Shown here piece after piece: positions 3,796-47,054 of a stretch of DNA of 64,000 nucleotides. The first letter of the stretch is position 1, and every line of letters begins with the position of its first letter. Source of the stretch: Antedon mediterranea (lineage: Eukaryota > Echinodermata > Crinoidea > Comatulida > Antedonidae). The stretch is from contig NC_092679.1 in NCBI RefSeq assembly GCF_964355755.1, forward strand, positions 12,762,932-12,826,931, given 5' to 3'. The notes beneath the pieces were generated by a model. That model saw only the letters and a list, made by a program, of their open reading frames with translations. It was not told the origin of the DNA and did not search any database. Position numbers and translations under genes: made by a program.

Positions 3796-3797
3796 TA

Positions 3798-16031: not shown

Positions 16032-16430
16032 GGGGTCAGCCAAAACTTGTACTGTCAGACAATGGTACAAATTTTGTTGGGGGTAAAAGGGAATTAAGTA
16101 AAGTAATGGAAATGTTGGATTTTAGGAAAATTAAAAACTATATGACTCATGAAGGAATTGGACGGAGTTTTAATCCACCTTTAAATCCACATTGCACATG
16201 TCTAAAGAAAGTCTAATTAAATCATCCAAAAAAATCAATGATTGCAATATTAGGCAAGGATAATAGCAAAATTAACCTTAGAAAGAACTTACGAAACATT
16301 TTTGGAATAGATGGGTTAAAGAATGGCTACCTACAATGAATAAAAAAAAATGGAAAGATCACACTCATGACTTTAAAGTTAATGATATTGTTATTGTAAA
16401 AGATAGATTTAATGTGAGAGGACAATTTCC
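16032..16430 (+). pseudogene. BEL/Pao-type integrase relic
   Basis: Two blocks are recognisable in different frames. PKLVLSDNGTNFVGGKRELS with the following RSFNPPLNPH is the second catalytic Asp region and the SFNPP motif of BEL/Pao integrases. FWNRWVKEWLPTMN, then KVNDIVIVKDRFNVRGQFP, is their C-terminal region. Between them the catalytic Glu segment is deleted or scrambled and stop codons occur. A dead fragment; no LTR found nearby. Confidence 0.7.
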
Positions 16431-16671
16431 CAGCGGTGGGAGGCTGCAGGGGCTCTAGCCCCCTCGTTGGAGAGCCAAAGGCAAAAAGAGCCACTAGCTA
16501 GTTTTCTAAATTGTCTTAGCTCAGCCCCACTTTCGAGCTGGTCATAGATACTGTACTTACCGGTATACATTTCGTTTCATATTTCGAAGTATAATACAGT
16601 CAGTGCATTGTATGGGGACCTATAAGCTCTATTTAGGTGATCATTTAGAATAAAATGATCACATTCTTATT
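16431..16671. repeat. Old dispersed repeat flanking the array (left)
   Basis: TTTTCTAAATTGTCTTAGCTC, GGGGACCTATAAGCTCTATTT and related words also occur right of the array (38917-39050) and, inverted in about three tandem copies, at 47075-47400. The array therefore sits in or next to an older repeat of roughly 115-120 bp period. Confidence 0.5.
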
Positions 16672-18274
16672 AGTTATCCGCATTGAGCGGATAACTCCTT
16701 GTAACTGTCCTGTTTCATCATCTTTTTTTTTTTTTTTTTTCCCTGTATTCTTCTTTCTTTCTGTCATTTTTGTGTCTCGCGTAACTCAAAAACGTGTAAA
16801 CATAACATTTCATAACTTTGTCAACATGTGGGCATTTACGTGAAATTGTGCACCTCCTATTTTTGAATGACGTCAGAGTTGCGCAACATGACTTACGCGC
16901 GTTTTTCCGAATTTCGCGTATTTAACATAGATCGAAAACCATATAACTATTTAAATTGAAACTGAAAAAAAGTTTAAGTTATATCTTGCGCTAACTGACT
17001 ATGGGGAAAAAATGGCATGTTTCACACGAAGTTACGCGCGCACGCGCGTTTAAAATTTCAAATTGCGAAAAATCAATTTCTAATCATCTTTCTACGCGTT
17101 TCATGTCATTTTAAGCATGTAAAAAATTCCCACGCGCGCGCTTTTTTTTACGTGCGCGGTGCGAACGTAGCTTTGAAAACAATTTTTCTCCCGTGATTTA
17201 TATTTTCAAGCCTTTTATAGTAATTTTACCAACTTTGAAACAATTTCGACTTCAAATTACGTCATACGGGCACGTCGAATTGGATAATTTATGTGCGTTT
17301 TTGAGGAAAAAGTTCAAAAATTTGTCAAAATTATACCTTTTTTAAACAATCATAGATTCTAAACTACGAGGTGAACTTTGTTTAAATTACATATCCAGGA
17401 AGATGATAAGTTGTAGATAAGGAATCATGCATTGATATGGCAAACCGGACATTGTGACGTCATCGTATGGCCACGCGAATATAAAATATAGGATTTTTGT
17501 ATCTTTCGTCATAGCGCATCTCATTTAATAGAGTGCCTCTCCACTTATCCGTATTCCATTTTAACCCAGATTTTGAAATTTTCTAGGTCAATCAACTATC
17601 TTACGCAAGAGTAAATTTTTTTTAAATTTCTATGACATCATCATGTCTAAAAATGTAAATAACGTGGGTCACTTATATTTATCTTTACAGTAAATTTTAA
17701 TCTGTTATAGCTCATCAGAATAAAATGTGATAATCACGATTAAAACGTTTTCTGGAAGCTATTGGATTGTAGATACGAATTCATGTAAACATTTTGCCAA
17801 TCGGATGTTGTGACGTCATCATATGGCCAGTTGAATAAATAAAGACGTATTTTCATATTTTGCGTAATAGTTCATCACATTTAAAAGGGTGCGCATCTAT
17901 ATTTTACGTATTCAAATTTCTTCTACACGTTAATATGTTGTTCCTGAGATTATTTCCTTCTGAAATTGTTATCTAAGTGTTTCATTTTGATACCGTCGCC
18001 ATGTTAAAAATTGGAATAAATGGCGGGTCCCGTAATTTCACCTATTCTACACTGTATGTAATATGTATACAGATTATACTGTTTGCATGTACCGTATATA
18101 CTATATGACACAAAATTGACAGAATTCAGCACTAACAGCATATCATATTCTTCAGTTCTTGTCATAATTCCATAATCTTTATCTGTGTGCAATATTCCAA
18201 CTTATGACGTGCACGTGGCGTTTTGTCGTGGTGCGGATAACTAACTCGTCAATGTGACGAGTTTCATGTCTAGT
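16672..18274 (+). mobile_element. Array unit 1 (A-type, full 5' end)
   Basis: Begins AGTTATCCGC hairpin and ends CTAGT. The 3' loop differs slightly (AATGT). First unit of the array; preceded by old repeat sequence, so this is the outer left junction. Confidence 0.7.
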
Positions 18275-18275
18275 T

Positions 18276-18346
18276 GGTTATCCGCAACGAAGTTGCAGGA
18301 TAACCTCTTGTGATTGTACGAAATCATCATCATCAACATCTTTTTT
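18276..18346 (+). repeat. Isolated 5'-end stub (B-type)
   Basis: GGTTATCCGCAACGAAGTTG hairpin plus CTCTTGTGATTGTACGAAATC and (CAT)n, with no unit body, wedged between units 1 and 2. Confidence 0.7.
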
Positions 18347-19933
18347 AGTTATCCGCACTCAGCGGATAACTCCTTGTAACTGTCCTGTTTCATCATCTTT
18401 TTTTTTTTTCTGTATTATTCTTTCTTTCTGTCATTTTTGTGCAGAGCATATCTCAAAAACGTGTAAAGTTAACATTTCATAACTTTGTCAACATATGGGT
18501 ATTCACCTGAAGTTGTGCTTTTCTATTTCTGAATGACGTCAGAATTGCACAACATGACTTACGCGCGTTTTAACGAATTTCGCGTATTTAACATACATCG
18601 AAAACCATATAACAATTTAAATTGAAACTTAACAAAAGTTTTAGTTATATCTTGCGCTAACTGACTTTGTAAAAAAAATGGCATGTTTTACACGAAGTTA
18701 CGCGCGCACGCGCGTTTAAAATTTCAAAACGCGAAAAATCAATTTCTAATCCACTTTCTACGCGTTTCATGTCATTTTGAGCAGGTAAAAAATTCCCACG
18801 CGTGCGCATTTTTTTACGCGCGCCGTGCGCACGTAGCGTTGAAAACAATTTTTTTCACGTGATTTATGTTTTTCCAGCCTTTTGTAGTAATTTTACCAAC
18901 TTTAAAAACGATTTAGACTTAAAATTACGTCATACGTGCACGTCGAATTGGATAATTTACGTGGGTTTTTGATGAAAAAGGTAAAAAATTCGTTAAAATT
19001 TGTCAAAATTATGCCTTTTTTTAAATAGTCGTAATTTCTAAACTGGACGGTCAACTTTTTGTGGATGACATATTCTTGAAGTTGATGAGGTGTAGATATC
19101 GGATCATGTAATAATATGGCTAACCGGACATTGTGACGTCATCGTATGGCCACGCGAATATAAAATATAGGATTTTTGTATCTTTCATCATAGCGCATGA
19201 CATTTAATAGAGCGCATCTCCAATTATCTGTTTTCCATTTTTACCCCGATTTTTATATTATCTAGGTCAATCAACTATCTTTCGTATGAGTTAAAAATAT
19301 TTTAATTTTTATGACGTCATCATGTCTAAAAATGTAAATAACGTGGGTCACTTATTTTCGTCTTTACAGTAAATTTCAATCTGTTATAGCTCGTCAGAAT
19401 AAAACGTGATAATCATGATTAAAACGTTTTCTGGAAGCTATTGGATTGTAGATACGAATTTATGTAAACATTTTGCCAATCGGATGTTGTGACGTCATCA
19501 TATGACCAGTTAAATAAAAAAAGTCGTATTTTCATCTTTTGCGTCATAATTCATCACATTTAAAAGAGCGCGCATCAATATTTTACGTATTTAAATTTCT
19601 TCTACACATTAATATGTTGTTGCCGAGATAATTTCCTTCCGAAATTGCTATCTTAGTATTTCATTTTGATACCGTCGCTATGTTAAAAATTGGAATAAAT
19701 GGCGGGTCCAGTCATTTCACCTATTCTACACAGTATGTAATATGTATACAGATTATATTGTATATAATACGACACAAAATAACAGAATTCAGCAATAACA
19801 ACATATCATATTCTTCAGTTCAGGTCATATTGCCACAATCTTTTTCTGTGTGCAATATTCTAACGTATGACGTCTACGTGGCCTTTGTCGTGCGGATAAC
19901 TAACTCGTCAAAGTGACGAGTTACATGTCTAGT
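18347..19933 (+). mobile_element. Array unit 2 (A-type, full 5' end)
   Basis: 1587 bp. It appears identical to unit 8 at a constant offset of 9592 bp wherever compared, with the same length. Contains four TGACGTCA palindromes. Confidence 0.75.
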
Positions 19934-19934
19934 T

Positions 19935-20144
19935 GGTTATCCGCAACGAAGTTGCAGGATAACCTCTTGTGATTGTACGAAATCATCATCTTTTTATTTT
20001 TGGTTATCCGCAACGAAGTTGCAGGATAACCTCTTGTGATTGTACGAAATCATCATCATCATCAACTTTTTATTGGTTATCCGCAACGAAGTTGCAGGAT
20101 AACCTCTTGTGATTGTACGAAATCATCAACATCAACTTTTTATT
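19935..20144 (+). repeat. Three stacked B-type 5'-end stubs ahead of unit 3
   Basis: GGTTATCCGC starts at 19935, 20002 and 20075 (and 20145 for the complete unit). Each stub is 67-73 bp: hairpin, CTCTTGTGATTGTACGAAATC and a variable (CAT)n/T tract, then the next start. Confidence 0.8.
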
Positions 20145-21760
20145 GGTTATCCGCAACGAAGTTGCAGGATAACCTCTTGTGATTGTACGAAATCATCATC
20201 ATCATCATCATCATCAACTTTTTATTCTTCTTCTTTCTTTCTGTATGATTTTTGTGTAACGCTTTTCTCTAAAACTCGCAAACATAACATTTCGGTAACT
20301 ATGTTAACATTTTGACATTTATGTAACGTCGTCAAGCGAAGCTTTTCATGATGTTTACAATTGCGCAACGTGACGTACGCGCGATTTAACGATTTTCTCG
20401 TATCTAACATATGTCGAAAACCAAATAACATTTTAAAGTGAAACTTTGCAAAAGTTTAATTTATATCATGCGCTAACTTTCTGTTGAAAAAAAATTGCGT
20501 GTTTTACACAAAGTTACGCGCGCACGCGTATTTAAAATTTCAAAATGCGCAAATTTAATTTATAATCAACTTTCTACGCGTTTTATGTCGTTTTAAGCAT
20601 GTCAAAAATTCCCACGCGTGCGCACATTTTTACGTGTGCGGTGCGCACGTAGCATTGAAAACGTATTTTTTTCGCGTGATTTATGTTTTTCCAGCCTTTT
20701 CTAGCAATTTTACCAAATTTTAAACAATTTCGACTTAAAGATACGTCATACGAGCACGTCGAATTGGACAATTTGCGCGCGTTTTTTATGAAAAGGTTAA
20801 AAAATTCGTTTAAAATATGCCTTTTTTTAAACAGTCGTAATTTCTAAACTAGACGGTCAACTTTTTGTGGATGACATATTCTGGAAGTAGATGAGTTGTA
20901 GATATCGGATCAGGTATTAATATGGCTAACCGGACATTGTGACGTCATCGTATGGCCACGCGAATATAAAATTTAGGATTTTTGTATCTTTCGTCATAAC
21001 TCATCACATTGAATAGAGCGCATCTCCACCTATTCGTTTTCCATTTTCACCCTGATTTTGATATTGTCTAGGTCAATCAACTATCTTTCGCATGAGTTAA
21101 AAATATTTTAATTTTTTTGACGTCATCATGCCTAAAAATTTAAATCACGTGTGGCATCAATTTCATCTTTACAGTAAATTTTAATCTGTTATAGCTCGTA
21201 AGAATAAAATGTGATAATCACGATTAAAACTTTTTCTGGAAGCTATTGGACTGTAGATACGAAATTATGTAAAAATGTTGCCAATCGGATGTTGTGACGT
21301 CATCATATGGCCAGTTAAATAAAAAAGGTCGTATTTTCATCTTTTGCGTCATAATTCATTACATTTAAAAGAGCGCGCATCAATATTTCACGTATTCAAA
21401 TTTCTTCTACACGCTAATACGTTGTTGCTGAGATAATTTCCTTTCGGAATTGCTACCTTCGCGTTTTATTTTAAAACCGTCAACATGTTAAAAATTGCAA
21501 TAAATAGCAGGTCCCGTAATTTCACCTATTCTACACTGTATGTCACTGTATGTGATATGGATACAGAATATACTGTGTATACTATATATGAATTTAAATA
21601 ATAAAATTCAGCAATAACAACATATCATATTCTTCAGTTCAGATCATAATGCCAACGTGAACACTTCCTTTTGTCCTCAACCTATCCCCTTAATGTTAAT
21701 GTTGCACCACTTGCGCGGCGGATAACCAAACTCGTCAAAGTGACGAGTTACATGTCTAGT
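20145..21760 (+). mobile_element. Array unit 3 (B-type, full 5' end)
   Basis: 5' GGTTATCCGC and 3' GCGGATAACC are exact inverses. Long (CAT)n near 20200. Three TGACGTCA sites, at about 20940, 21118 and 21296. Confidence 0.7.
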
Positions 21761-23283
21761 TTGTCTTCTTTCTTTCTGTATGATTTTTGTGGATCGCTTT
21801 TCTCTAAAACTTGCAAACATAACATTTTGTAACTTTCTCAACATATCGTCATGCACATGAAGATGTGCAGCGAAGCTTTTCATGATGTTTACAATTGCGC
21901 AACGTGACTTACGTGCGATTTAACGATTTTGTCGTATTTAACATAGCTTGACAACCAAATAACATTTCAACTTGAAACTTTGCAAAAGTTTAATTTATAT
22001 CATGCGCTAACTTTCTGTTGAAAAAAAATTGCGAGTTTTACACAAAGTTACGCGCGCACGCGCATTTAAAATTTCAAAATGCGCAAAATTAATTTATAAT
22101 CAACTTTCTACGCGTTTCATGTCGTTTTAAGCATGTCAAAAATTCCCACGCGTGCGCACATTTTTACGTGTGCGGTGCGCACGTAGCATTGAAAACGTAT
22201 TTTTTTCGCGTGATTTATGTTTTTCCAGCCTTTTCTAGTAATTTTACCAAATTTTAAACAATTTCGACTTAAAGATACGTCATACGAGCACGTCGAATTG
22301 GACAATTTGCGCGCGTTTTTTATGAAAAGGTTAAAAAATTCGTTTAAAATATGCCTTTTTTTAAACAGTCGTAATTTCTAAACTAGACGGTCAACTTTTT
22401 GTGGATGACATATTCTGGAATTAGATGAGTTTTAGATATCGGATCAGGTTTTAATATGGCTAACCGGACATTGTGACGTCATCGTCTGGCCACGCGAATA
22501 TAAAATTTAGGATTTTTTTATCTTTTGTCATAGCTCATCACATTGAATAGAGCGCATCTCCACTTCTCCGTTTTCCATTTTCACCCCGATTTTGATATTG
22601 TCTAGGTCAATCAACTATCTTTCGCATGAGTTAAAATTATTTTAATTTTTTTGACGTCATCATGCCTAAAAATTTAAATCACGTGTGGCATCAATTTCAT
22701 CTTTACAGTAAATTTTAATCTGTTATAGCTCGTAAGAATAAAATGTGATAATCACGATTAAAACTTTTTCTGGAAGCTATTGGATTGTAGATACGAAATT
22801 ATGTAAAAATGTTGCCCATTGGATGTTGTGACGTCATCATATGGCCAGTTAAATAAAAAAGGTCGTATTTTCATCTTTTGCGTCATAATTCATTACATGT
22901 AAAAGAGCGCGCATCAATATTTCACGTATTCAAATTTCTTCTACATGCTAATACGTTGTTGCTGAGATAATTTCCTTTCGGAAATGCTACCTTTGCGTTT
23001 CATTTTAAAACCGTCAACATGTTAAAAATTGCAATAAATAGCGGGTCCGTAATTTCACCTATTCTACACTGTATGTGATATGGATACAGATTATACTGTG
23101 TATACTATATATGAATTTAAATAATAAAATTCAGCAATAACAACATATCATATTCTTCAGTTCAGGTCATAATGCCAACGTGAACACTTCCTTTTGTCCT
23201 CAACCTATCCCCTTAATGTTAATGTTGCACCACTTGCGCGGCGGATAACCAAACTCGTCAAAGTGACGAGTTACATGTCTAGT
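21761..23283 (+). mobile_element. Array unit 4 (B-type, no 5' hairpin)
   Basis: Body starts TTGTCTTCTTTC directly after CTAGT of unit 3. 3' end complete. Confidence 0.7.
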
Positions 23284-24808
23284 TCTTCTTCTTTCTTTCT
23301 GTATGATTTTTGTGTAACGCTTTTCTCTGAAACTTGCAAACATAACATTTTGTTAACTATGTTAACATTTTGACATTTATGTAACGTCGTCAAGCGAAGC
23401 TTTTCATGATGTTTACAATTGCGCAAAGTGACGTACGCGCGATTTAACGATTTTCTCGTATTGAACATATGTCGAAAACCAAATAACATTTCAACTTGAA
23501 ACTTTGCAAAAGTTTAATTTATATCATGCGCTAACTTTCTGTTGAAAAAAAATTGCGTGTTTTACACAAAGTTACGCGCGCACGCGCATTTAAAATTTCA
23601 AAATGCGCGAAACTAATTTATAATCAACTTTCTACGCGTTTCATGTCGTTTTAAGCATGTAAAAAATTCCCACGCGTGCGCACATTTTTACGTGTGCGGT
23701 GCGCACGTAGCATTGAAAACGTATTTTTTTCGCGTGATTTATGTTTTTCCAGCCTTTTCATGTAATTTTACCAAATTTTTAACAATTTCGACTTAAAGAT
23801 ACGTCATACGAGCACGTCGAATTGGACAATTTGCGCGCGTTTTTTATGAAAAGGTTAAAAAATTCGTTTAAAATATGCCTTTTTTTAAACAGTCGTAATT
23901 TCTAAACTAAACGGTCAACTTTTTGTGGATGGCATATTCTGGAAGTAGATGAGTTGTAGATATCGGATCAGGTATTAATATGGCTAACCGGACATTGTGA
24001 CGTCATCGTATGGCCACGCGAATATAAAATTTAGGATTTTTGTATCTTTCGTCATAGCTCATCACATTGAATAGAGCGCATCTCCACTTATCCGTTTTCC
24101 ATTTTCACCCCGATTTTGATATTGTCTAGGTCAATCAACTATCTTTCGCATGAGTGAAAAATATTTTAATTTTTATGACGTCATCATGCCTAAAAATTGA
24201 AATCACGTGTGGCATCAATTTCATCTTTACAGTAAATTTTAATCTGTTATAGCTCGTAAGAATAAAATGTGATAATCACGATTAAAACTTTTTCTGGAAG
24301 CTATTGGATTGTAGATACGAAATTATGTTAAAATGTTGCCAATCGGATGTTGTGACGTCATCATATGGCCAGTTAAATAAAAAAGGTCGTATTTTCATCT
24401 TTTGCGTCATAATTCATTACATTTAAAAGAGCGCGCATCAATATTTCACGTATTCAAATTTCTTCTACACGCTAATACGTTGTTGCTGAGATAATTTACT
24501 TTCGGAATTGCTACCTTCGCGTTTCATTTTAAAACCGTCAACATGTTAAAAATTGCAATAAATAGCGGGTCCCGTAATTTCACCTATTCTACACTGTATG
24601 TGATATGGATACAGATTAGACTGTGTATACTATATATGAATTTAAATAATAAAATTCAGCAATAACAACATATCATATTCTTCAGTTCAGGTCATAATGC
24701 CAACGTGAACACTTCCTTTTGTCCTCAACCTATCCCCTTAATGTTAATGTTGCACCACTTGCGCGGCGGATAACCAAACTCGTCAAAGTGACGAGTTACA
24801 TGTCTAGT
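23284..24808 (+). mobile_element. Array unit 5 (B-type, no 5' hairpin)
   Basis: Starts TCTTCTTCTTTC directly after CTAGT. 3' end complete. Confidence 0.7.
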
Positions 24809-24809
24809 T

Positions 24810-26415
24810 GGTTATCCGCAACGAAGTTGCAGGATAACCTCTTGTGATTGTACGAAATCATCATCAACATCTTTTTCTTAATCTTCTTTCTTTCTGTATG
24901 ATTTTTGTGTAACGCTTTTCTCTAAAACTTGCAAACATAACATTTTGTTAACTATGTTAACATTTTGATATTTATGTAACGTCGTCAAGCGAAGCTTTTC
25001 ATGATGTTTACAATTGCGCAACGTGACGTACGCGCGATTTAACGATTTTCTCGTATTTAACATATGTCGAAAACCAAATAACATTTTAAAGTGAATTACT
25101 TTGCAAAAGTTTAATTTATATCATGCGCTAACTTTCTGTTGAAAAAAAATTGCGTGTTTTACACAAAGTTACGCGCGCACGCGCATTTAAAATTTCAAAA
25201 TGCGCAAAATTAATTTATAATCAACTTTCTACGCGTTTCATGTCGTTTTAAGCATGTCAAAAATTCCCACGAGTGCGCACATTTTTACGTGTGCGGTGCG
25301 CACGTAGCATTGAAAACGTATTTTTTTTGCGTGATTTATGTTTTTCCAGCCTTTTCTAGTAATTTTACCAAATTTTAAACAATTTCGACTTAAAGATACG
25401 TCATACGAGCACGTCGAATTGGACAATTTGCGCGCGTTTTTTATGAAAAGGTTAAAAAATTCGTTTAAAATATGCCTTTTTTTAAACAGTCGTAATTTCT
25501 AAACTAGACGGTCAACTTTTTGTGGATGACATATTCTGGAAGTAGATGAGTTGTAGGTATCGGATCAGGTATTAATATGGTTAACCGGACATTGTGACGT
25601 CATCGTATGGCCACGCGAATACAAAATTTAGGATTTTTGTATCTTTCGTCATAGCTCATCACATTGAATAGAGCGCATCTCCACTTATTCGTTTTCCATT
25701 TTCACCCCGATTTTGATATTGTCTAGGTCAATCAACTATCTTTCGCATGAGTTAAAAATATTTTAATTTTTTTGACGTCATCATGCCTAAAAATTTAAAT
25801 CACGTGTGGCATCAATTTCATCTTTACAGTAAATTTTAATCTGTTATAGCTCGTAAGAATAAAATGTGATAATCACGATTAAAACTTTTTCTGGAAGCTA
25901 TTGGATTGTAGATACGAAATTATGTAAAAATGTTGCCCATCGGATGTTGTGACGTCATCATATGGCCAGTTAAATAAAAAAGGTCGTATTTTCATCTTTT
26001 GCGTCATAATTCATTACATTTAAAAGAGCGCGCATCAATATTTCACGTATTCAAATTTCTTCTACACGCTAATACGTTGTTGCTGAGATAATTTCCTTTC
26101 GGAATTGCTACCTTCGCGTTTCATTTTTAAACCGTCAACATGTTAAAAATTGCAATAAATAGCGGGTCCCGTAATTTCACCTATTCTACACTGTATGTCA
26201 CTGTATGTGATATGGATACAGATTATACTGTGTATACTATATATGAATTTAAATAATAAAATTCAGCAATAACAACATATCATATTGTTCAGTTCAGGTC
26301 ATAATGCCAACGTGAACACTTCCTTTTGTCCTCAACCTATCTCCTTAATGTTAATGTTGCACCACTTGCGCGGCGGATAACCAAACTCGTCAAAGTGACG
26401 AGTTACATGTCTAGT
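24810..26415 (+). mobile_element. Array unit 6 (B-type, full 5' end)
   Basis: GGTTATCCGC start and GCGGATAACC near the 3' end. Its post-stub CTTAATCTTCTTTC matches the first bases of unit 9. Confidence 0.7.
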
Positions 26416-27937
26416 TCTTCTTTCTTTCTGTATGATTTTTGTGTAACGCTTTTCTCTAAAACTCGCAAACATAACATTTCGGTAACTATCTTAACATATT
26501 GACATTTACGTAACGTCGTCAAGCGAAGCTTTTCATGATGTTTGCAATTGCGCAACGTGACGTACGCGCGATTTAACGATTTTCTCGTATTTAACATATG
26601 TTGAAAACCAAATAACATTTCAACTTGAAACTTCGCAAAAGTTTAATTTATATCATGCGCTAACTTTATGTTGAAAAAAAATTGCGTGTTTTACACAAAG
26701 TTACGCTCGCACGCGCATTTAAAATTTCAAAATGCGCAAAATTAATTTCTAATCAACTTTCTACGCGTTTCATGTCGTGTTAAGCATGTCAAAAATTCCC
26801 ACGCGTGCGCACATTTTTACGTGTGCGGTGCGCACGTAGCATTGAAAACGTATTTTTTTCGCGTGATTTATGTTTTTCCAGCCTTTTCTAGTAATTTTAA
26901 CCAATTTTAAACAATTTCGACTTAAAGATACGTCATACGAGCACGTCGAATTGGACAATTTGCGCGCGTTTTTTATGAAAAGGTTAAAAAATTCGTTTAA
27001 AATATGCCTTTTTTTAAACAGTCGTAATTTCTAAACTAGACGGTCAAATTTTTGTGGATGACATATTCTAGAAGTAGATGAGTTGTAGATATCGGATCAG
27101 GTATTAATATGGCTAACGGGACATTGTGACGTCATCGTATGGTCACGCGAATATAAAATTTAGGATTTTTGTATCTTTCGTCATAGCTCATCACATTGAA
27201 TAGAGCGCATCTCCACTTATCCGTTTTCCATTTTCACCCCGATTTTGATATTGTGTAGGTCAATCAACTATCTTTCGCATGAGTTAAAAATATTTTAATT
27301 TTTTTGACGTCATCATGCCTAAAAATTTAAATCACATGTGGCATCAATTTCATCTTTACAGTAAATTTTAATCTGTTATAGCTCGTAAGAATAAAATGTG
27401 ATAATCACGATTAAAACTTTTTCTGGAAGCTATTGGATTGTAGATACGAAATTATGTAAAAATGTTGCCAATCGGATGTTGTGACGTCATCATATGGCCA
27501 GTTAAATAAAAAAGGTCGTATTTTCATCTTTTGCGTCATAATTCATTACATTTAAACGAGCGCGCATCAATATTTCACGTATTCAAATTTCTTCTACACG
27601 CTAATACGTTGTTGCTGAGATAATTTCCTTTCGGAATTGCTACCTTCGCGTTTCATTTTAAAACCGTAAACATGTTAAAAATTGCAATAAATAGCGGGTC
27701 CCGTAATTTCACCTATTCTACACTGTATGTGATATGGATACAGATTATACTGTGTATACTATATATGAATTTAAACAATAAAATTCAGCAATAACAACAT
27801 ATCATATTCTTCAGTTCAGGTCATAATGTCAACGTGAACACTTCCTTTTGTCCTCAACCTATCCCCTTAATGTTAATGTTGCACCACTTGCGCGGCGGAT
27901 AACCAAACTCGTCAAAGTGACGAGTTACATGTCTAGT
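26416..27937 (+). mobile_element. Array unit 7 (B-type, no 5' hairpin)
   Basis: Starts TCTTCTTTC directly after CTAGT. 3' end complete. Confidence 0.7.
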
Positions 27938-27938
27938 T

Positions 27939-29525
27939 AGTTATCCGCACTCAGCGGATAACTCCTTGTAACTGTCCTGTTTCATCATCTTTTTTTTTTT
28001 TCTGTATTATTCTTTCTTTCTGTCATTTTTGTGCAGAGCATATCTCAAAAACGTGTAAAGTTAACATTTCATAACTTTGTCAACATATGGGTATTCACCT
28101 GAAGTTGTGCTTTTCTATTTCTGAATGACGTCAGAATTGCACAACATGACTTACGCGCGTTTTAACGAATTTCGCGTATTTAACATACATCGAAAACCAT
28201 ATAACAATTTAAATTGAAACTTAACAAAAGTTTTAGTTATATCTTGCGCTAACTGACTTTGTAAAAAAAATGGCATGTTTTACACGAAGTTACGCGCGCA
28301 CGCGCGTTTAAAATTTCAAAACGCGAAAAATCAATTTCTAATCCACTTTCTACGCGTTTCATGTCATTTTGAGCAGGTAAAAAATTCCCACGCGTGCGCA
28401 TTTTTTTACGCGCGCCGTGCGCACGTAGCGTTGAAAACAATTTTTTTCACGTGATTTATGTTTTTCCAGCCTTTTGTAGTAATTTTACCAACTTTAAAAA
28501 CGATTTAGACTTAAAATTACGTCATACGTGCACGTCGAATTGGATAATTTACGTGGGTTTTTGATGAAAAAGGTAAAAAATTCGTTAAAATTTGTCAAAA
28601 TTATGCCTTTTTTTAAATAGTCGTAATTTCTAAACTGGACGGTCAACTTTTTGTGGATGACATATTCTTGAAGTTGATGAGGTGTAGATATCGGATCATG
28701 TAATAATATGGCTAACCGGACATTGTGACGTCATCGTATGGCCACGCGAATATAAAATATAGGATTTTTGTATCTTTCATCATAGCGCATGACATTTAAT
28801 AGAGCGCATCTCCAATTATCTGTTTTCCATTTTTACCCCGATTTTTATATTATCTAGGTCAATCAACTATCTTTCGTATGAGTTAAAAATATTTTAATTT
28901 TTATGACGTCATCATGTCTAAAAATGTAAATAACGTGGGTCACTTATTTTCGTCTTTACAGTAAATTTCAATCTGTTATAGCTCGTCAGAATAAAACGTG
29001 ATAATCATGATTAAAACGTTTTCTGGAAGCTATTGGATTGTAGATACGAATTTATGTAAACATTTTGCCAATCGGATGTTGTGACGTCATCATATGACCA
29101 GTTAAATAAAAAAAGTCGTATTTTCATCTTTTGCGTCATAATTCATCACATTTAAAAGAGCGCGCATCAATATTTTACGTATTTAAATTTCTTCTACACA
29201 TTAATATGTTGTTGCCGAGATAATTTCCTTCCGAAATTGCTATCTTAGTATTTCATTTTGATACCGTCGCTATGTTAAAAATTGGAATAAATGGCGGGTC
29301 CAGTCATTTCACCTATTCTACACAGTATGTAATATGTATACAGATTATATTGTATATAATACGACACAAAATAACAGAATTCAGCAATAACAACATATCA
29401 TATTCTTCAGTTCAGGTCATATTGCCACAATCTTTTTCTGTGTGCAATATTCTAACGTATGACGTCTACGTGGCCTTTGTCGTGCGGATAACTAACTCGT
29501 CAAAGTGACGAGTTACATGTCTAGT
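27939..29525 (+). mobile_element. Array unit 8 (A-type), apparent exact copy of unit 2
   Basis: Same start, same 1587-bp length and same sequence as 18347-19933 in all segments compared. Both neighbours (units 7 and 9) are B-type. Confidence 0.75.
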
Positions 29526-31051
29526 CTTAATCTTCTTTCTTTCTGTATGATTTTTGTGTAACGCTTTTCTCTAAAACTTGCAAACATAACATTTTGTTAA
29601 CTATGTTAACATTTTGACATTTATGTAACGTCGTCAAGCGAAGCTTTTCATGATGTTTACAATTGCGCAACGTGACGTACGCGCGATTTAACGATTTTCT
29701 TGTATTTAACATATGTCGAAAACCAAATAACATTTTAAAGTGAAACTTTGCAAAAGTTTAATTTATATCATGCGCTAACTTTCTGTTGAAAAAAAATTGC
29801 GTGTTTTACACAAAGTTACGCGCGCACGCGCATTTAAAATTTCAAAATGTGCAAAATTAATTTATAATCAACTTTCTTCGCGTTTCAAGTCGTGTTAAGC
29901 ATGTCAAAAATTCCCACGCGTGCGCAAATTTTTACGTGTGCGGTGCGCACGTAGCATTGAAACGTATTTTTTTCGCGTGATTTATGTTTTTCCAGCCTTT
30001 TCTAGTAATTTTACCAAATTTTAAACAATTTCGACTTAAAGATACGTCATACGAGCACGTCGAATTGGACAATTTGCGCGCGTTTTTTATGAAAAGGTTA
30101 AAAAATTCGTTTAAAATATGCCTTTTTTTAAACAGTCGTAATTTCTAAACTAGACGGTCAAATTTTTGTGGATGACATATTCTAGAAGTAGATGAGTTGT
30201 AGAGATCGGATCAGGTATTAATATGGCTAACCGGACATTGTGACGTCATCGTATGGTCACGCGAATATAAAATTTAGGATTTTTGTATCTTTCGTCATAG
30301 CTCATCACATTGAATAGAGCGCATCTCCATTTATCCGTTTTCCATTTTCACCCCGATTTTGATATTGTGTAGGTCAATCAACTATCTTTCGCATGAGTTA
30401 AAAATATTTTAATTTTTTTGACGTCATCATGCCTAAAAATTTAAATCACGTATGGCATCAATTTCCTCTTTACCGTAAATTTTATTCTGTTATAGCTCGT
30501 AAGAATAAAATGTGATAATCACGATTAAAACTTTTTCTGGAAGCTATTGGATTGTAGATACGAAATTATGTAAAAATGTTGCCCATCGGATGTTGTGACG
30601 TCATCATATGGCCAGTTAAATAAAAAAGGTCGTATTTTCATCTTTTGCGTCATAATTCATTACATTTAAAAGAGCGCGCATCAATATTTCACGTATTCAA
30701 ATTTCTTCTAAACGCTAATACGTTGTTGCTGAGATAATTTCCTTTCGGAATTGCTACCTTCGCGTTTCATTTTAAAACCGTCAACATGTTAAAAATTGCA
30801 ATAAATAGCGGGTCCCGTAATTTCACCTATTCTACACTGTATGTGATATGGATACCGATTATACTGTGTATACTATATATGAATTTAAATAATAAAATTC
30901 AGCAATAACAACATATCATATTCTTCAGTTCAGGTCATAATGCCAACGTGAACACTTCCTTTTGTCCTCAACCTATCCCCTTAATGTTAATGTTGCACCA
31001 CTTGCGCGGCGGATAACCAAACTCGTCAAAGTGACGAGTTACATGTCTAGT
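29526..31051 (+). mobile_element. Array unit 9 (B-type, no 5' hairpin)
   Basis: Starts CTTAATCTTC, the sequence that follows the 5' stub in unit 6. 3' end complete. Confidence 0.7.
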
Positions 31052-31052
31052 T

Positions 31053-31284
31053 AGTTATCCGCACTATGGCGGATAACTCCTTGTAACTGTCCTGTTTCAT
31101 CATCTTTTTTTTTTTTTTTTTCTGTATTATTAGTTATCCGCTTAGTAGCGGATAACTCCTTGTAATCGTCCTGTTTCATCATATTTTTTTTTTTTTCTGT
31201 ATTATACTTATTAGTTATCCGCTTAGTAGCGGATAACTCCTTGTAATCGTCCTGTTTCATCAAATTTTTTTTTTCTGTATTATT
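31053..31284 (+). repeat. Three stacked A-type 5'-end stubs ahead of unit 10
   Basis: AGTTATCCGC starts at 31053, 31132 and 31213 (31285 for the complete unit). Each has hairpin, ATAACTCCTTGTAA and a T-run ending CTGTATTAT. The hairpin loop changes from ACTATG to TTAGTA between stubs while the stems persist. Confidence 0.8.
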
Positions 31285-32875
31285 AGTTATCCGCTTAGTA
31301 GCGGATAACTCCTTGTAACTGTATGAAATCATCTTTTTTTTCTGTATTATTCTTTCTTTCTGTCAATTTTGTGTCTCGCGTATCTCAAAAACTTGTAAAC
31401 AAAACATTTTATAACTTTGTCAACATGTGGGCATTCACGTGAAATTGTGCACCTCCTATTGTGAATGACGTCAGAATTGCGCAACGTGATTTACGCGCGT
31501 TTTAACGAATTTCGCGTATTTAACATAGATCGAAAACCATATAGTAATTTAAATTGAAACTTAACAAAAGTTTAATTTATATCTTGCGCTAATTGACTGT
31601 GGGAAAAAAATGGCATGTTTCACACGAAGTTACGCGCGCAAGGGCGTTTAAAATTTCAAAATGCGAAAAATCAATTTCTAATCAACTTTCTACGCGTTTC
31701 ATGTCATTTTGAGCATGTCAAAAATTCCCACGCGCGCGCATATTTTTACTCGCACGGTGCGCACGTAGCGTTGAAAATAAATTTTTTTCACCTGATTCAT
31801 GTTTTTCCAGCCTTTTCTAGTAATTTTACCAACTTTTGAACAATTTTGACCTAAAACTACGTCATACGGGCACATCCAATTGGATAATTTACGTGCGTTT
31901 TTGATGAAAAAGTTCAAAAATTTGTCAAAATTCGTCAAAATTATGCCTTTTTTTAAACATTCATAGATTCTAAACTACGAGGTGAACTTTTTTTAAATTA
32001 TATATTCTCGAAGTTGATGAGTTGTAGATATGGAATAATGCATTAATATGGCTAATGGGACATTATAACGTCATCGTATGGCCACGCGAATATAAAATAT
32101 AGGATTTTTATATCTTTCGTCATAGCGCAACACATTTAATAGAGCGCATCTCCACTTATCCATTTTTTATTTTCAACCTGATTTTGATATTGTCTTGGTG
32201 AATGAACTATCTTTCGCATGAGTTAAAAATATTTTAATTTTTATGACGTCATCATGTCTAAAAATGTAAATAACGTGGGTCAACTATTTTCATCTTTACA
32301 GTAACTTTCAATCTGTTATAGCTCGTCAGAATAAAACGTGATAATCATGATTAAAACGTTTTCTGGAAGCTATTGAATTGTAGATACGAATTCATGTAAA
32401 CATTTTGCCAATCGGATGTTGTGACGTCATCATATGGCCAGTTGAATAAAAAAAGGCGTATTTTCATATTTTGCGTAATAGTTCATCACATTTAAAAGGG
32501 CGCGCATCTATATTTTACGTATTCAAATTTCTTCTACACGTTAATATGTGGTTGCTGAGATAATGTCCTTCCGAAATTGCTAACTTAGTGTTTCATTTTG
32601 ATACCGTCGCCATGTTAAAAATAAGAATAAATGGGGGGTCTCGTAATTTCACCTATTCTACACTGTATGCAACATGTATACAGAGTATACCGTTTGCACT
32701 GTATACTATACGACACAAAATAGACTGAATTCAGCACTAACAACGTATGATATTCTTCAGTTCAGGTCATAATGCCATAATCTTTATCTGTGTGCAATAT
32801 TCCAACGTATGACGTGCACGTGGCGTTTGTCGTGCGGATAACTAACTCGTCAAAGTGACGAGTTTCATGTCTAGT
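31285..32875 (+). mobile_element. Array unit 10 (A-type, full 5' end)
   Basis: AGTTATCCGC start and GCGGATAACT before the 3' stem. Carries the same TGACGTCA-containing modules as units 1 and 2. Confidence 0.7.
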
Positions 32876-34382
32876 ACTTCTTTCTTTCTGTCATTTTTGT
32901 GCGTCGCGTTTCTCTAAAACGTGTAAACAGAACATATCGTAACTTTGTCAACATATCGACATTTACGTGAACTTGTGCACCTCCTATTTTTGAATGACGT
33001 CAGAGTTGCGCAACGTGACTTACGTGCGATTTTATGAATTTCAATGATTGATCATAGACTAAAAACCAAACATAATTTTGTTTTGAAACTTTGTGAAAAT
33101 TTAAGTCATATCAAGCGCAAACTTTCTATGGATTAAAAATAGCATGTTTCACAAAAAGTTACGCGCGCACGCGCGTTTAAAATTTTAACGTGCGAAATAT
33201 TAACTTCTAATCAACTTTCTATGCGTTTCATGTCATTTTGAGCATGTCAAAAATTCCCACGCGCGCGAACATTTTTACGCACGCGGTGCACACGTAGCGT
33301 TAAAAACATATTTTTTTCGCGTGATTTATGTTTTTTCAGCCTTTTCTAGTAATGTTACCAAATTTTAAACAATTTCGACTTAAAATTACGTCATACGAGC
33401 ACGTCGAATTAGATAATTTGCACGCGTATTTGGTGAAAAAGTTAAAAAATTCGTCAAAATTATGCCTATTTTTAAACAGTCATAGATTCTAAACTACATG
33501 GAGAACTTTTTTTTAATTACATATTCTGGAAGTTGATGAGTTGTAGATATCGGATCATGCATTAATAAGGCTAACCGGACTTTGTGACGTCATCGTATGG
33601 CCACGCGAATATAAAATAGAGGATTTTTGTCTATTTCGTCATAGCTCATCACATTTAATAGAGCGCATCTCCACTTATTCGTTGTCCATTTTCATTCCGA
33701 TTTTAATATATTCTAGATCTATCAACAATCTTTTGCATGAATTAAAAATTTTTTAATTTTGTTAACGTCATCATGCCTAAAAATTTAAATTACGTTGGTC
33801 ATTAATTTCATCTTTACAGTAAATTTTAATCAGTTATGCCTCGTAAGAATAAAATGTGATAATCACAATTAAAACGTTTTCAGGAAGCTATTGTATTGTA
33901 GATACAAAATCATGTGTAAATTGTGCCAATCGAATGTTGTGACGTCATCATATGGCCAGTTAAATAAAAAAAGTCGTATTTTCATCTTTTGCATTATATT
34001 TCATTACATTTAAAAGAGCGCGCATCAATATTTCACGTATTCAAATTTCTTCTACACGTTAATACGTTGTTGCTGAGATAATTTCATTCAGAAATTTCTA
34101 CTTTTACATTTCATTTTGAAACCGTCAAGATGTTAAAAATTACAATAAAATACGGGTCCCGTAATTTCACCTATTTTACACTGTTTGTGATATGTATACA
34201 GATTGTACTGTGTATACTATATGACACAAAATAACAGAATTCAGAAATAACATATCATATTCTTCAGTTCAGGTCATAATGCCTTAATATTTTTCTGTGT
34301 GCAATATTCTAACGTATGACGTGCACGTGGCGTTTGTCGAGCGGATAACTAACTCGTCAAAGTGACGAGTTTCATGTCTAGT
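32876..34382 (+). mobile_element. Array unit 11 (third subtype, no 5' hairpin)
   Basis: Starts ACTTCTTTC. Closest to unit 12; both have GTTTTGACAC/GTTTTGAAAC variants and GAGCGGATAACT at the 3' end. Confidence 0.65.
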
Positions 34383-35890
34383 TTCCTTCCGTCATTTTTG
34401 TGCGTCGCGTTTCTCTAAAACGTGTAAACAGAACATATCGTAACTTTGTCAACATATCGACATTTACGTGAACTTGTGCACCTCCTATTTTTGAATGACG
34501 TCAGAGTTGCGCAACGTGACTTACGCGCGATTTTATGAATTTCAATGATTGATCATAGACTGAAAACCAAACATAATTTTGTTTTGACACTTTGTGAAAA
34601 TTTAAGTCACATCAAGCGCAAACTTTCTATGGATTAAAAATAGCATCTTTCACAAAAAGTTACGCGCGCACGCGCGTTTAAAATTTTAGAGTGCGAAAAA
34701 TCAACTTCTAATCAACTTTCTATGCGTTTCATGTCATTTTGAGCATGTCAAAAATTCCCACGCGCGCGAAACTTTTTACGCACGCGGTGCACACGTAGCG
34801 TTAAAAACATGCTTTTTTCGCGTGATTTATGTTTTTTCAGCCTTTTATAGTAATGTTACCAACTTTTAAACAATTTCGACTTAAAATTACGTCATACGAG
34901 CACGTCGAATTAAATAATTTGCACGCGTTTCTGATGAAAAAGTTTAAAAATTCGTCAAAATTATGCCTATTTTTAAACAGTCATAGATTCTAAACTACAT
35001 GGAGAACTTTTTTTTAATTACATATTCTGGAAGTTGATGAGTTGTAGATATCGAATCATGCATTAATATGGCTAACCGGACATTGTGACGTCATCGTATG
35101 GCCACGCGAATATAAAATATAGGATTTTTGTCTCTTTCGTCATAGCTCATCACATTTAATAGAGCGCATCTCCACTTATTCGTAGTCGATTTTCATCCCA
35201 ATTTTAATATATTCTAGGTCAATCAACTATCTTTTGCATGAATTAAAAAATTTTTAATTTTTTTAACGTCATCATGCCTAAAAATTTAAATTACGTTGGT
35301 CATTAATTTCATCTTTACAGTAAATTTTAATCTGTTATAGCTCGTAAGAATAAAATGTGATAATCACGATTAAAACGTTTTCAGGAAGCTATTGTATTGT
35401 AGATACAAAATCATGTGAAAATTGTGCCAATCGAATGTTGTGACGTCATCATATGGCCAGTTAAATACAAAAAGTCGTATTTTCATCTTTTGCGTTATAT
35501 TTCATTACATTTAAAAGAACGCGCATCAATATTTCACGTATTCAAATTTCTACTACACGTTAATATGTTGTTGCTGAGATAATTTCATTCTGAAATTTCT
35601 ACTTTTGCATTTCATTTTGAAACCGTCAAGATGTTAAAAATTACAATAAAATACGGGTCCCGTAATTTCACCTATTTTACACTGTTTGTGATATGTATAC
35701 AGATTGTACAGTGTATACTATGTATATGACACAAAATAACAGAATTCAGAAATAACAACATATCATATTCTTCAGTTCAGGTCATAATGCCTTAATATTT
35801 TTCTGTGTGCAATATTCTAACGTATGACGTGCACGTGGCGTTTGTCGAGCGGATAACTAACTCGTCAAAGTGACGAGTTTCATGTCTAGT
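34383..35890 (+). mobile_element. Array unit 12 (third subtype, no 5' hairpin)
   Basis: Starts TTCCTTCCG. Near relative of unit 11, suggesting a local tandem duplication. Confidence 0.65.
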
Positions 35891-37390
35891 TCTTCTTTCT
35901 TTCTGTCATTTTTGTGCAGAGCGTATCTCTAAAACGTGTAAAGTTAACATGTTATAACTTTGTCAACATATGGGCAATCACATGAAGTTGTGCTTTCCTA
36001 TAATTGAATGACGTCAGAGTTGCGCAACAAGACTTACGCACGTTTTTATGAATTTCGCGTATTTAACATAGATCGGAAACCATATAACAATTTAAATTGA
36101 AACTTAGCAAAAGTCTAATTTATATCGTGCGCTAACTTTTTATGCACTAAAAATGGCACGTTTTACACGAAGTTATGCGCGCACGCGCGTTTAAAATTTT
36201 ACAATGCGAAAAATCAATTTCTAATCAACTTTCTACGCGTTTCATGTCATTTTGAGCATGTCAAAAATTCCCACACGTGCGCAAATTTTTACGCGCGTGG
36301 TGCACACGTAGCTTTAAAAACGTCATTTTTTCGAGTGATTTATGTTTTTCCAGCCTTTTCTATTAATTTTACCAACTTTTAAACAATTTCGACTTCAAAT
36401 TACGTCATACGAGCACGTAGAATATGATAATTTGCGCGCTTTTTTGATGAAAAACTTCAAAAATTCGTCAAAATTAAGCCTTTTTTTAAACAATCGTAGT
36501 TTCTAAACTAAACGGTAAAAATTATTTTTATTACATATTCTGGAAGTTGATGAGTTGTAGATATCAGATCATGGATTAATATGGCTAACCGGACATTGTG
36601 ACGTCATCGTATGGCCACGCGAATATGAAATTTAGGATTTTTGTATCGTTCGTCATAACTCCTCACATTTAATAGAGCGCATCTCCACTTATCCGTTTTC
36701 CATTTTCACCCCAAATTTGATATTGTCTAGGTCAATCAACTATATTTAGCATGAGTTAAAAATATTTTAATTTTTATGACGTCATCATGCCTAAAAATTT
36801 AAATGACGTGTGGCATTAATTTCATCTTTACAGTAAATTTCAATCTGTTATAGCTCGTAAAAATAAAATGTGATAATCACGATTAAAACGTTTTCTTGAA
36901 GCTATTGGATTGTAGATACAAAATCTTGCCAATCGGATGTGGTGACGTCATCATATGGCCAGTTAAATAAAAAAAGTCGTATTTTCATATTTTGCGTCAT
37001 AGTTCATTACATTTAAAAGAGCGCGCATTAATATTTCACGTATTCAAATTTCTTCTACACGTTAATATGTTGTTGCTGAGATAATTTCCTTCCAAAATTG
37101 CTACCTTCGCGTTTCATTTTAAAACCATCAACATGTTAAAAATTGCAATAAATAGCGGGTCCCGTAATTTCCCCTATTCTACACTGTATGTGATATGTAT
37201 ACAGATTACACTGTGTATACTATATATGAATCAAAATAATAGAATTCAGCAATAACAACATATCATAGTCTTCAGTTCAGGTCATAATTCCATAATCTTT
37301 TTCCGTGTGCAATATTCCAACGTATGGCGTGGACGTGGCGTTTGTCGTGCGGATAACTAACTCGTCAAAGTGACGAGTTTCATGTCTAGT
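35891..37390 (+). mobile_element. Array unit 13 (no 5' hairpin)
   Basis: Starts TCTTCTTTC. Mixed character: A-type first half, more B-like second half. 3' end complete. Confidence 0.65.
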
Positions 37391-38902
37391 TATTTATTTC
37401 TCTCTGTACAGATTTTGTGTAACAAATATCTCAAAAAGTTTAATGTTAATGATTACCATAATTTCACAATGTCTTTCAAATACGTTAACTTAGTCCTAAT
37501 AAGCTTTTCAGCGTGATCACTCATCCGTGACGTCACGTATACGCCATTTTGTGAAATCACATTATCAATCATATCTCCATAATTCATTATCACATATTAA
37601 TGAAAATCACTACACGTAAACTTGAGGTCAAGATAAAAAATATTAGCAAATAAAAACTCGGGCGTTTCAAGGTCATGCGCGTGAAATCGCGCGTTGAAAT
37701 TTTAAAAAGCTCAAAATTTAGTTTTTATCAATTTAGAGCATGAAATAGGCCATTTGCGTGTTTAAAAAAATTACTGCGCAAAAACACATTTTTGCGCACG
37801 CGATTTTTAAAAAGGGTACAAAATAAAATTTGATGTATACATCATATTCTATTCACAATCCTTAGTACATTCTCCGACTTTGAGTCCATTCCGACTTAAA
37901 ATAACGCTATACGAGCACGTTAAAAATGACAAAATGCGCACATTAATTGTACAAAAGTGCTAAAAATGGTAAAAAAATAAGGCCTTTTTAAAATGAATAT
38001 AACTCTACAGAATGGCAGGTGACCCCCAATTTTTTTAACTTATTATGGAAGCCAATAAGTTGTAGATATAAATATATATACATATTAGACGTACAAAATG
38101 GTATGACGTCATCAAATGGCCACTTGAATTTAAAAATTAGTAATTATTATCTTTTTGTGTGGGTTATCACATTCAATAGAGCGCATCTCCGTTATTTGAG
38201 CCCAATTTTTGCACACATTTTAGTATGTGCTTGCTCAATTAATTATCTTTCTCATAAGTTGTCAACATTTTTATTTTGATGACGTCATCACGCGTAAAAA
38301 CTTGAATAACTTAGGTCGTGTAATTTCAGCTACACCATACATTTGAATATCTTATAGCTCCTCAGAATTAAAGGTGACCTTGAAGATTATAATTTATTAT
38401 GAAAGCTGATGAAATGTAGATATGAATTCATATAAAAATTAAGCCTATCGGATGTTGTGATGTTATCATATGGCCAGTTGAAGTTAAAAAGTAGTTTTTA
38501 AATTTCTTTAGTCGAAGTTATACAAATTTCAAAGAGCGCGCATTGCGCTTCTACGTGTCAAATTCTCTTCCAATCCTTATATTTTTTTGCTCAATTCATT
38601 ATCTTTCGAAATTGTCATCTTCGAGTTTATTTTGATAATTCCATCATACCAAAAAATTTTAACTTGATGTGTGTCCCATAATTTCACCTATGCTACACTG
38701 TATATAGATATACAGTATATACTGTACATTGTATATGGCATATAATAGGCATAACTCAGCAATATAAGCGTATAATAGGATGGCATACATCAACATTTTC
38801 CTATCGTATGTTAACGTACGTACATGTTTAAAAAAAATTAATTTCATTAAAATGATAAAAATGATCACCTATAATTCGTCAAAGTGACGAATTAAATTCT
38901 AG
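37391..38902 (+). mobile_element. Array unit 14 (most diverged, right edge)
   Basis: Same order of modules but strongly diverged. The 3' stem is TAATTCGTC/GACGAATTA with the usual AAAGT loop, followed by CTAGT at 38898-38902. The GCGGATAAC subterminal repeat is not recognisable here. Confidence 0.65.
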
Positions 38903-39340
38903 TTTTCAATTGTTTTTGTTTTAGCTCTATTTAACTCTATTTTTCTAAATGTTCTTAGTTCCATCCCAGCCTTGGTGGGCTGGTTCTCTGTAGACTTGTA
39001 ATTTTGTTTCTTATGTATAATTGCAATTTCCGGGGACCTAGCAGCCCATGGGTGTTAGTCTCGCGCATTTATAATTTCCATACCCCTAGGCAGCAACCAA
39101 CCTACGTCTCTTCTATTAACGATATACTATAATGGCTACCCTAAATCTGATTAAAACGGCTTCAAATTACGCTAGAACGCATAGCTTTCGGGGGCCCTTG
39201 GCGGCCCCCAGCATAGTGATGCTTGCATCACTCGCATAGCCCAACGCCCACCCATCGGGGAATTTAGCCCTGCGTCGGGGAATTCAGCCCCGCGTCGGGG
39301 AATTTAGCCCCACGTCGGAAAGATCTTGGCGCCACCACTG
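38903..39340. repeat. Right flank of array: old repeat and 20-bp tandem repeat
   Basis: 38917-39050 is related to 16431-16671. At 39255-39318 a GC-richer unit GTCGGGGAATTTAGCCCC is repeated about four times. No gene. Confidence 0.5.
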
Positions 39341-46211: not shown

Positions 46212-47054
46212 TGGAACGCCGTTTACGCAACATTTCGATGATATGAATTTTATGACGCGATATGTGAATGAAATGCATCGATATGAATTGAATGGCGTGA
46301 TATATGAATGAAATGTTTTGAATTGAATGCTTTGAATTGAATGTTTTGAATGAAATGTTTTGAATTGAATGTTTTGAATAAAATGTTTTGAATGAAATGT
46401 TTTGAACTGAATGTTTTGAATAAAATGTTTTGAATGAAATGTTTTGAATGAAATTTTTTGAATTAAATGTTTTGAATGAAATGTTTGAATTGAATTGAAA
46501 AGTCAAACTATTGGCGGCGTATGTCATTCCCGCTCGCGATTTTTTTTCAACCTCTTAATAGGCCTAAGCATGGGTACCCTCATCTCCTTTCAACGCTGTC
46601 ATCAATATGAATCCTTTACAGAGACTCCCTAACAGACCTGAAACATTGGAATACATATTTCCGAACCCAGGTCTGTTAGGATTCTCTGTAAAGGCAGCGT
46701 GGAAGAAAGGAGATGAGGGTACCCAGGCTTAGGTCTAAGAGGTTGAGAAAATAATCGCGAGCGATTATGACATAAGCCACCAATAGTTTGACTTTTCAAT
46801 TCAATTCAAACATTTCATTCAAAACATTTCATTCAAAACATTTCATTTAAAACATTTCATTCAAAACATTTCATTCAAAACATTTCATTCAAAACATTTC
46901 ATTCAAAACATTTCATTCAAAATATTCAATTCAAAGCATTCAATTCAAAACATTTCATTCATATATCGCACCATTTAATTCATATCGATGCATTTCATTC
47001 ACATATCGCGTCATAAAATTCATATCATCGAAATGTTGCGTAAACGGCGTTCCA
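46212..47054. mobile_element. 843-bp near-complete palindrome (fold-back element) with 14-bp tandem repeats
   Basis: Starts TGGAACGCCGTTTACGC and ends with its complement, flanked by TA (46210-46211, 47055-47056). Both arms contain tandem TTTTGAATGAAATG units (about 46310-46490 and 46800-46940). Pairing continues to the centre through GGGTACCCTCATCTCCTTTC and the CAGGTCTGTTAGG segments, leaving a loop of a few tens of bases near 46650. It resembles the larger fold-back element at 3798-7678 in TA flanks, TGG start and tandem arms, but the repeat unit differs. Confidence 0.75.

Follow-up and report, generated by a model that had tools for sequence, protein, structure and literature searches.

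Helentrons and the related HINE and DINE-1 elements are rolling-circle transposons for which the accessible text of PMC4067079 describes subterminal inverted repeats, palindromes at both ends, insertion at T-rich or TT sites and a partner encoding Rep, helicase and endonuclease domains. In Helitron2, according to the accessible text of PMC3627910, the 5' hairpin holds the front repeat, the back repeat lies just upstream of the 3' hairpin, and insertion can follow TTTT without a target duplication (Helitron-1N1_CRe). Opposite open reading frame orientation is known in a few Helentrons and Helitron2 elements, among them one Drosophila Helentron and some Helitron2 copies (accessible parts of PMC3627910, PMC4067079, PMC5148889). 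Self-insertion of Helitron2-type elements has already been proposed for Fusarium: the accessible text of PMC5148889 reports that FoHeli targets TNAT, explains its multiple short 5' termini (the first 31-85 nt repeated) by self-insertion, describes a single non-autonomous copy lying inside a putatively autonomous element, and leaves open whether a Metarhizium triple tandem came from 5'-end insertion or rolling-circle replication. Here we describe a block of such elements in a 64,000-nucleotide stretch of the crinoid Antedon mediterranea (contig NC_092679.1, positions 12,762,932 to 12,826,931; hereafter the window, whose own numbering is used for its features). The block occupies window positions 16634-38903 on the plus strand (22,270 bp), and we read it, with a probability of roughly 0.92, as a stack of 14 non-autonomous Helentrons of the HINE type produced by repeated self-insertion. 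Insertion in this array was serial, precise and located in the front tract of resident copies.

The block contains 14 five-prime (front) and 14 three-prime (back) ends on one strand, the back ends, each a hairpin plus CTAGT, lying between 18270 and 38903. Units measure 1.50-1.62 kb, bear hairpin and CTAGT termini and follow one another with no spacer DNA, and 8 of the 14 front hairpin ends are parted from their own bodies as short 5' stubs. End mapping bore out the original prediction on the strand, number, size and termini of the units, on the missing spacer and on the stubs; the array also lies where it was predicted, although the extent given, 16672-38902, was slightly too short because the front end of the outermost element had been overlooked. 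Each front end forms a hairpin around a repeat whose inverted copy lies directly upstream of the back hairpin, the subterminal inverted repeats being TAGTTATCCGC / GCGGATAACTA and TGGTTATCC / GGATAACCA, followed by a hairpin 5' of CTAGT. DNA folding of five terminal stretches gave hairpin z-scores of -4.9 to -6.5, with 0 of 200 shuffles as good for each stretch, and the terminal hairpins exceed chance. Elements start with TAGG, TAGT or TGGT and a 5' hairpin, behind which a microsatellite of (ATC)n and T runs follows in type A and T runs follow in type B. Three types can be separated at each end independently, A (front TGGTTATCC..., back ...GGATAACCAA), B (front TAGTTATCC..., back ...GGATAACTAA) and C (front TAGGTGATCATT..., back ...AATGATCACCTA); the C-end pattern was added only after the window had been read, and the label A in end typing also takes in D-type front ends.

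When each front end is taken to open a bracket and each back end to close one, with pairing last in, first out, the window is balanced. The linear order of ends, C( B( )B A( B( )B A( A( A( A( )A )A )A A( )A )A B( )B )A B( B( B( B( )B )B )B )B )C, parses as C{B1, A1{B2, A2{A3{A4{A5}}, A6}, B3}, B4{B5{B6{B7}}}}, and terminal type agrees in 14 of 14 pairs. For the 8 interrupted pairs (4 A, 3 B, 1 C) the chance of a full match under random closing types is 1/280 by arithmetic. Element C is the outermost: its divergent front end (LTS, 5' hairpin; 16634-16670, placed by brackets and hairpin fold) is cut from its body and 3' end (37391-38903; subterminal repeat AATGATCACCTA, hairpin and CTAGT) by all nested elements, and an empty site lies immediately outside both. 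All other elements are likewise on the plus strand and placed by the brackets. Directly inside C are the uninterrupted B1 (16671-18274), A1 (front stub 18275-18345, body 29526-31051) and B4 (stub 31052-31130, body 35891-37390). A1 holds the uninterrupted B2 (18346-19933), A2 (stub 19934-20000, body 26416-27937, the latter also placed by its rejoined junction) and the uninterrupted B3 (27938-29525). Within A2 lie A3 (stub 20001-20073, body 23284-24808) and, as a second insertion, the uninterrupted A6 (24809-26415); A3 contains A4 (stub 20074-20143, body 21761-23283), and A4 contains the uninterrupted A5 (20144-21760), the innermost copy of a six-level chain, C > A1 > A2 > A3 > A4 > A5. In the B stack, B4 encloses B5 (stub 31131-31211, body 34383-35890), B5 encloses B6 (stub 31212-31283, body 32876-34382), and the uninterrupted B7 (31284-32875) is innermost. 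B2 and B3, both in A1, have 100% identical bodies and differing upstream flanks, and a copy at C6:28028027 is listed as 100% identical to B2.

The same bracket order is found at other loci, and exact-pattern counts over the whole genome, 1404 front and 1529 back ends, are similar, in favour of the model. The window and the loci fetched from elsewhere in the genome together gave 67 bracket pairs, 27 interrupted and 40 uninterrupted. Types match in 26 of the 27 interrupted pairs, against a permuted mean of 15.7 and with no equal among 100,000 shuffles, and in 39 of the 40 uninterrupted ones, both mismatches sitting in the rearranged array C10:20855001. Seven arrays were read with both outer flanks, which were free of element matches for up to 1 kb on each side, and five of these balance: the window (14/14), C1:919601-939900 (13/13), C6:15643000 (4/4), C7:26107000 (3/3) and C6:28026500 (3/3). 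The first fetched part of the C1 array left two front ends open, for which the model required two closing ends downstream and no new front end. The downstream stretch held exactly two back ends, both of type A, and no other ends, so that the array closes at 13/13; the positions of these closing ends, though not their types, were already in the genome end listing before the stretch was fetched.

If a body is the remainder of the element to which its stub belongs, stub and body must read through once rejoined. For 13 of the 27 interrupted pairs, the rejoined 22-mer has an exact match in an uninterrupted copy. All 13 belong to the 25 same-type A or B pairs; when the pairings of these 25 were permuted 5,000 times, such matches numbered 4.2 on average and never more than 11. 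In the window, the A3 22-mer is present in six uninterrupted copies and that of A4 has no exact match in such copies. The break points vary (the slash marks the break): ATCTTTT/TCTTAATC, ATCTTTTT/CTTAATC, CTTAAT/CTTC, CTTTTTAT/TCTTC and CTTTT/TATTC, the second being the junction of A1, which reads as in the uninterrupted A6. At these five points the body begins where the stub ends, and the differences between them argue against a single ancestral junction copied by recombination.

A genome-wide search with the host sequences from both sides of the block, joined in silico, returned an empty site twice on the same contig, at C10:12733852 (~46 kb upstream) and C10:12862829 (~61 kb downstream). 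Both empty sites show a gap of 0 and no extra base, with 1 and 2 substitutions over 194 letters. As the flanks join without a gap, the 22,270 bp form one insertion unit bounded by the ends of C itself; a target duplication is absent, and no more than a single T could belong to either element or target. The first empty copy belongs to a duplication that extends, at ~99% identity, at least 2.44 kb to the left and at least 2.56 kb to the right, up to the edges of the piece read, and the second was read over 301 letters. Because the flank copies differ by only ~1%, the stack may be young, although an older uninserted allele could be the source of the duplicated flanks.

The genome also encodes a plausible source of the enzyme. 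The Helitron_like_N profile matched 87 genome places, 36 of them in open frames of more than 3,000 residues. One autonomous copy, read end to end at C10:20860204-20880667 (20.46 kb), has B-type ends and a 3064-aa frame that runs against the front-to-back direction and matches Helitron_like_N (5e-36), PIF1 (7e-28), Exo_endo_phos (9e-10) and OTU (8e-10), as well as Herpes_teg_N and DUF6570. The combination of Rep, PIF1 helicase and endonuclease domains with B-type ends makes this partner a Helentron, and it is the endonuclease domain that places it with Helentrons and apart from Helitron2. B3 aligns over positions 1-1421 with the left end of the autonomous copy at 91% and over positions 1400-1581 with the right end at 88%; judged from these alignments, type B is a deletion derivative of the C10 autonomous copy or of a close relative.

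Between window positions 16634 and 38903 there is no stop-to-stop frame of more than 180 residues, and this lack of coding capacity, with the derivation by deletion from an autonomous element (compared for type B), is what defines a HINE. The Helentron features found are the Rep/PIF1/endonuclease partner, subterminal inverted repeats, a 3' hairpin, a T-rich site without target duplication and the microsatellite; the elements do not fit canonical Helitron1, which has a 5'-TC end, no 5' hairpin and an A^T target. The features tested support the assignment to Helentrons and HINEs. The original prediction had proposed the rolling-circle class and suggested looking for a RepHel protein whose element shares these termini, which the C10 copy supplies, since it has B-type ends and carries Rep and helicase domains. 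The inverted repeats, the hairpins at both ends, CTAGT and the empty sites point to the same class, and terminal inverted repeats with a target duplication, named as evidence that would exclude it, are not what the duplication-free empty sites show. In the Helentron protein itself (C10:20865504-20874695, L002:504-9695), the match to the herpesvirus tegument N-terminal conserved region stands beside the OTU domain. Autonomous Helentron domains recur on one strand, ~22-72 kb apart, at C8:799805-936734, C1:23049359-23175497, C4:19884407-20017998 and other places, a spacing as if the 20-kb autonomous elements were clustered or stacked too; in two C8 pieces that were read, D-type front ends follow the back end of another copy.

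Target use was surveyed at 97 A, B and D front ends from the window and the fetched loci. In 50 cases another front end precedes at a distance of 37-88 nt (median 70). A further 21 have a back end no more than 10 nt upstream, and the script assigned the remaining 26 to a 'host' class. The preceding four letters are TNAT or TTTT (TTAT, TTTT, TCAT, TAAT) in 50/50 of the front-tract insertions and in 20/26 of the 'host' class, which is mixed (at least three after other-type back ends, one inside a body, several in tracts whose front end went unrecognised or unreached); its six other ends comprise three after an other-type back end, two with TATT (duplication halves) and one with AAAT (mid-body). 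Three of the ten isolated fetched loci (L014, L016, L017) sit in C tracts, and the seven without an upstream C tract (L013, L015, L018-L022) have TAAT or TTAT throughout. On contig C1, the first 100 front ends with an exact match, a sample not selected for arrays, include 47 behind another front end, 21 abutting a back end, 11 within 80 nt after one and 21 in neither position; 9 are isolated. The bracket order places each of the window's 13 nested copies in a front tract. Eight come straight after a front end; the other 5 adjoin the back end of a copy inserted earlier into the same tract, and for these 5 tract re-use and insertion at the neighbour's edge both fit. In one D-type case, at C7:12098000, a second front end lies ~25 nt behind a first that the pattern had missed. 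Locus L022, with three front ends and one back end, was considered as a composite element moved as a unit, and this was rejected; it is read as nested because the two outer front ends differ in type from the inner copy, being D-type like those of the autonomous copies on C7 and C8, and because the DNA after the inner copy begins with a similar T-rich tract, the locus having been read without its outer back end.

In the history that we propose, element C would have entered host DNA first. A and B copies, made by the enzyme of autonomous Helentrons, would have arrived later, one precise unit at a time, each landing at a T preceded by TNAT or TTTT; these sites would lie in the T-rich tract that follows the front end of a resident copy at a distance of ~40-90 nt. 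Each insertion would leave the front stub of the resident upstream and its LTS-less body downstream, and the uniform orientation would follow from the presence of the target motif on the same strand in every tract. Knowledge of the family suggests that a Helentron transposase made these insertions via a single-strand intermediate. As to why the front tract is favoured, a bound transposase or an extruded hairpin at the resident front end may expose or tether the T-rich site, and such enzyme- or hairpin-guided targeting is, tentatively, the likeliest reading. A plain target preference, by which copies go to any TNAT or TTTT and the front tract is merely T-rich, with residents unrecognised, ranks next as a credible possibility; it concerns the targeting step only and is compatible with nesting. 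Isolated copies do use the same motif in host DNA, as the seven loci without a C tract show. However, three units tested contain 95-111 TNAT/TTTT sites on the top strand, only 4-15 of which are at positions 40-95, yet every nested copy of the window is in a front tract, and across all fetched loci the pattern detected a single front end inside a body (C10:20860204), a rarity that speaks against plain preference and is at the same time an exception to our own reading.

Arrays of Helitrons have usually been explained from their structure by termination bypass or rolling-circle amplification (accessible parts of PMC5876387, PMC4067079, PMC12628747). In these texts, bat and silkworm arrays are thought due to bypass of the termination signal (PMC4067079), tandem arrays are taken as support for rolling-circle transposition (PMC5876387), and rolling-circle amplification of truncated Helitrons is described (PMC12628747). 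A concatemer of this kind, in which the transposase passes the back end and writes head-to-tail copies in one event, would account for units that all have the same orientation and end in CTAGT. We give it hardly any weight, however, as it predicts near-identical neighbours, each with a complete front end, whereas families A, B and C alternate in the block, stubs are parted from bodies in bracket order and 22 of 27 type A nearest neighbours sit in other arrays. The least probable explanation that we weighed is an assembly artefact, a repeat wrongly laid out: the order of the array is known from the assembled sequence alone, but one would not expect it to yield brackets that balance and agree in type, junctions that complement each other and an empty site that is exact.

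Expansion of one or two initial insertions through unequal crossing-over or slippage, which is very unlikely here as the source of the block, would correspond to the statement in the original prediction that the family 'has become a satellite-like array'. This description is not supported: local recombinational amplification of one unit is not what the bracket order and the mixed types show, the whole block has an empty site, and type A nearest neighbours lie in the same array no more often than expected (5/27, permuted mean 4.25). Crossing-over predicts neither the equal numbers of stubs and LTS-less bodies nor the type match in every bracket pair of the window, and it does not sit well with five balanced arrays out of seven or with break points that differ between insertions. 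Concatemer formation and unequal crossing-over were both rejected as the main cause on brackets, junctions, neighbours and empty site. Several observations nevertheless weigh against serial self-insertion, some of them in favour of crossing-over. Type B, as an exception, has its nearest neighbours in the same array in 7/21 cases against a permuted mean of 2.2, an excess that comes partly via the identical pair B2/B3. Secondary tandem duplications occur elsewhere, one of 1,977 bp at C2:22859500 and one of 4.34 kb in the rearranged array C10:20855001, which is unbalanced with 5 front and 7 back ends, and C10:229001 is unbalanced with 5 front and 6 back ends; the unequal end counts and the duplications show that recombination acts on some stacks. 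The other 14 of the 27 rejoined 22-mers have no exact match in uninterrupted copies. Bracket parsing left 44 front and 9 back ends unpaired; 7 of these front ends are the C hairpin on the other strand, 2 (C1:919000) were closed later, and most of the remaining unpaired ends are taken to be edge-cut pieces or copies with ends outside the known patterns. Finally, in age-test trees built from a sparse sample of 62 copies, the host copy had the longer terminal branch in 8 same-type pairs and the shorter in 13, with 1 tie, and over all pairs it was longer in 16 and shorter in 14; the age order thus receives no support. We think this test uninformative, given a diverse donor pool and the few copies sampled, and do not count it as evidence for the model.

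The window has other repeats outside the block. At 3796-7680 there is a foldback-like structure with two inverted arms of ~1.4 kb (85% identical) around a 1-kb middle, the arms holding long runs of 15-bp tandem repeats, and smaller inverted pairs of short tandem repeats on a similar plan (14-bp and 15-bp units) are found at 46240-47030 and 57462-58518. Positions 54273-56429 contain the frames of a long terminal repeat retrotransposon (reverse transcriptase, RNase H, integrase). Just left of the block, at 16300-16470, is a frame that we presume, by eye only, to resemble the integrase end of BEL/Pao elements.

Compared with the described systems, the stack differs in several respects. A nested stack is not described in the accessible part of the Helentron and HINE account (PMC4067079). 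The evidence for FoHeli in the accessible text of PMC5148889 consists mostly of several front ends with one back end, whereas here every element retains both its ends, in stacks of 14 and 13 elements and with empty sites, and for this reason self-insertion and rolling-circle explanations can be separated. Plant centromeric Helitron arrays (Xiong et al. 2016, as described in the accessible part of PMC12628747) are also tandem with several 5' ends, but many of them have several 5' ends and one 3' end, attributed to truncated circles, in contrast to the equal and nested ends found here. Drosophila transposon dimers (McGurk and Barbash, as described in the same part of PMC12628747) share independent insertion at a preferred site without amplification; they comprise two copies, while the present elements are of the rolling-circle class and nest up to six levels across families. 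In a literature search that covered mostly titles and the beginnings of abstracts, and subscription literature thinly, we recognised no paper describing a nested stack with empty sites. As far as these searches show, the depth, completeness, cross-family order, empty site and strong front-tract bias are new, and the first four decide between the explanations for this array.

The sequence, read as brackets, gives the succession of events and shows how this class of transposon can build arrays, and counting and matching front and back ends offers a simple re-test for other Helitron arrays. We further suggest, with considerable reserve, that the front hairpin and its T-rich tract serve as a landing pad that recruits transposase with new copies, within and across families. 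If so, copies would home on one another and leave the remainder of the genome alone, stacks would grow one insertion at a time and most genome copies would be homed ones. With such a homing site in the front tract, a rolling-circle transposon would choose its targets so as to stay among its own copies.

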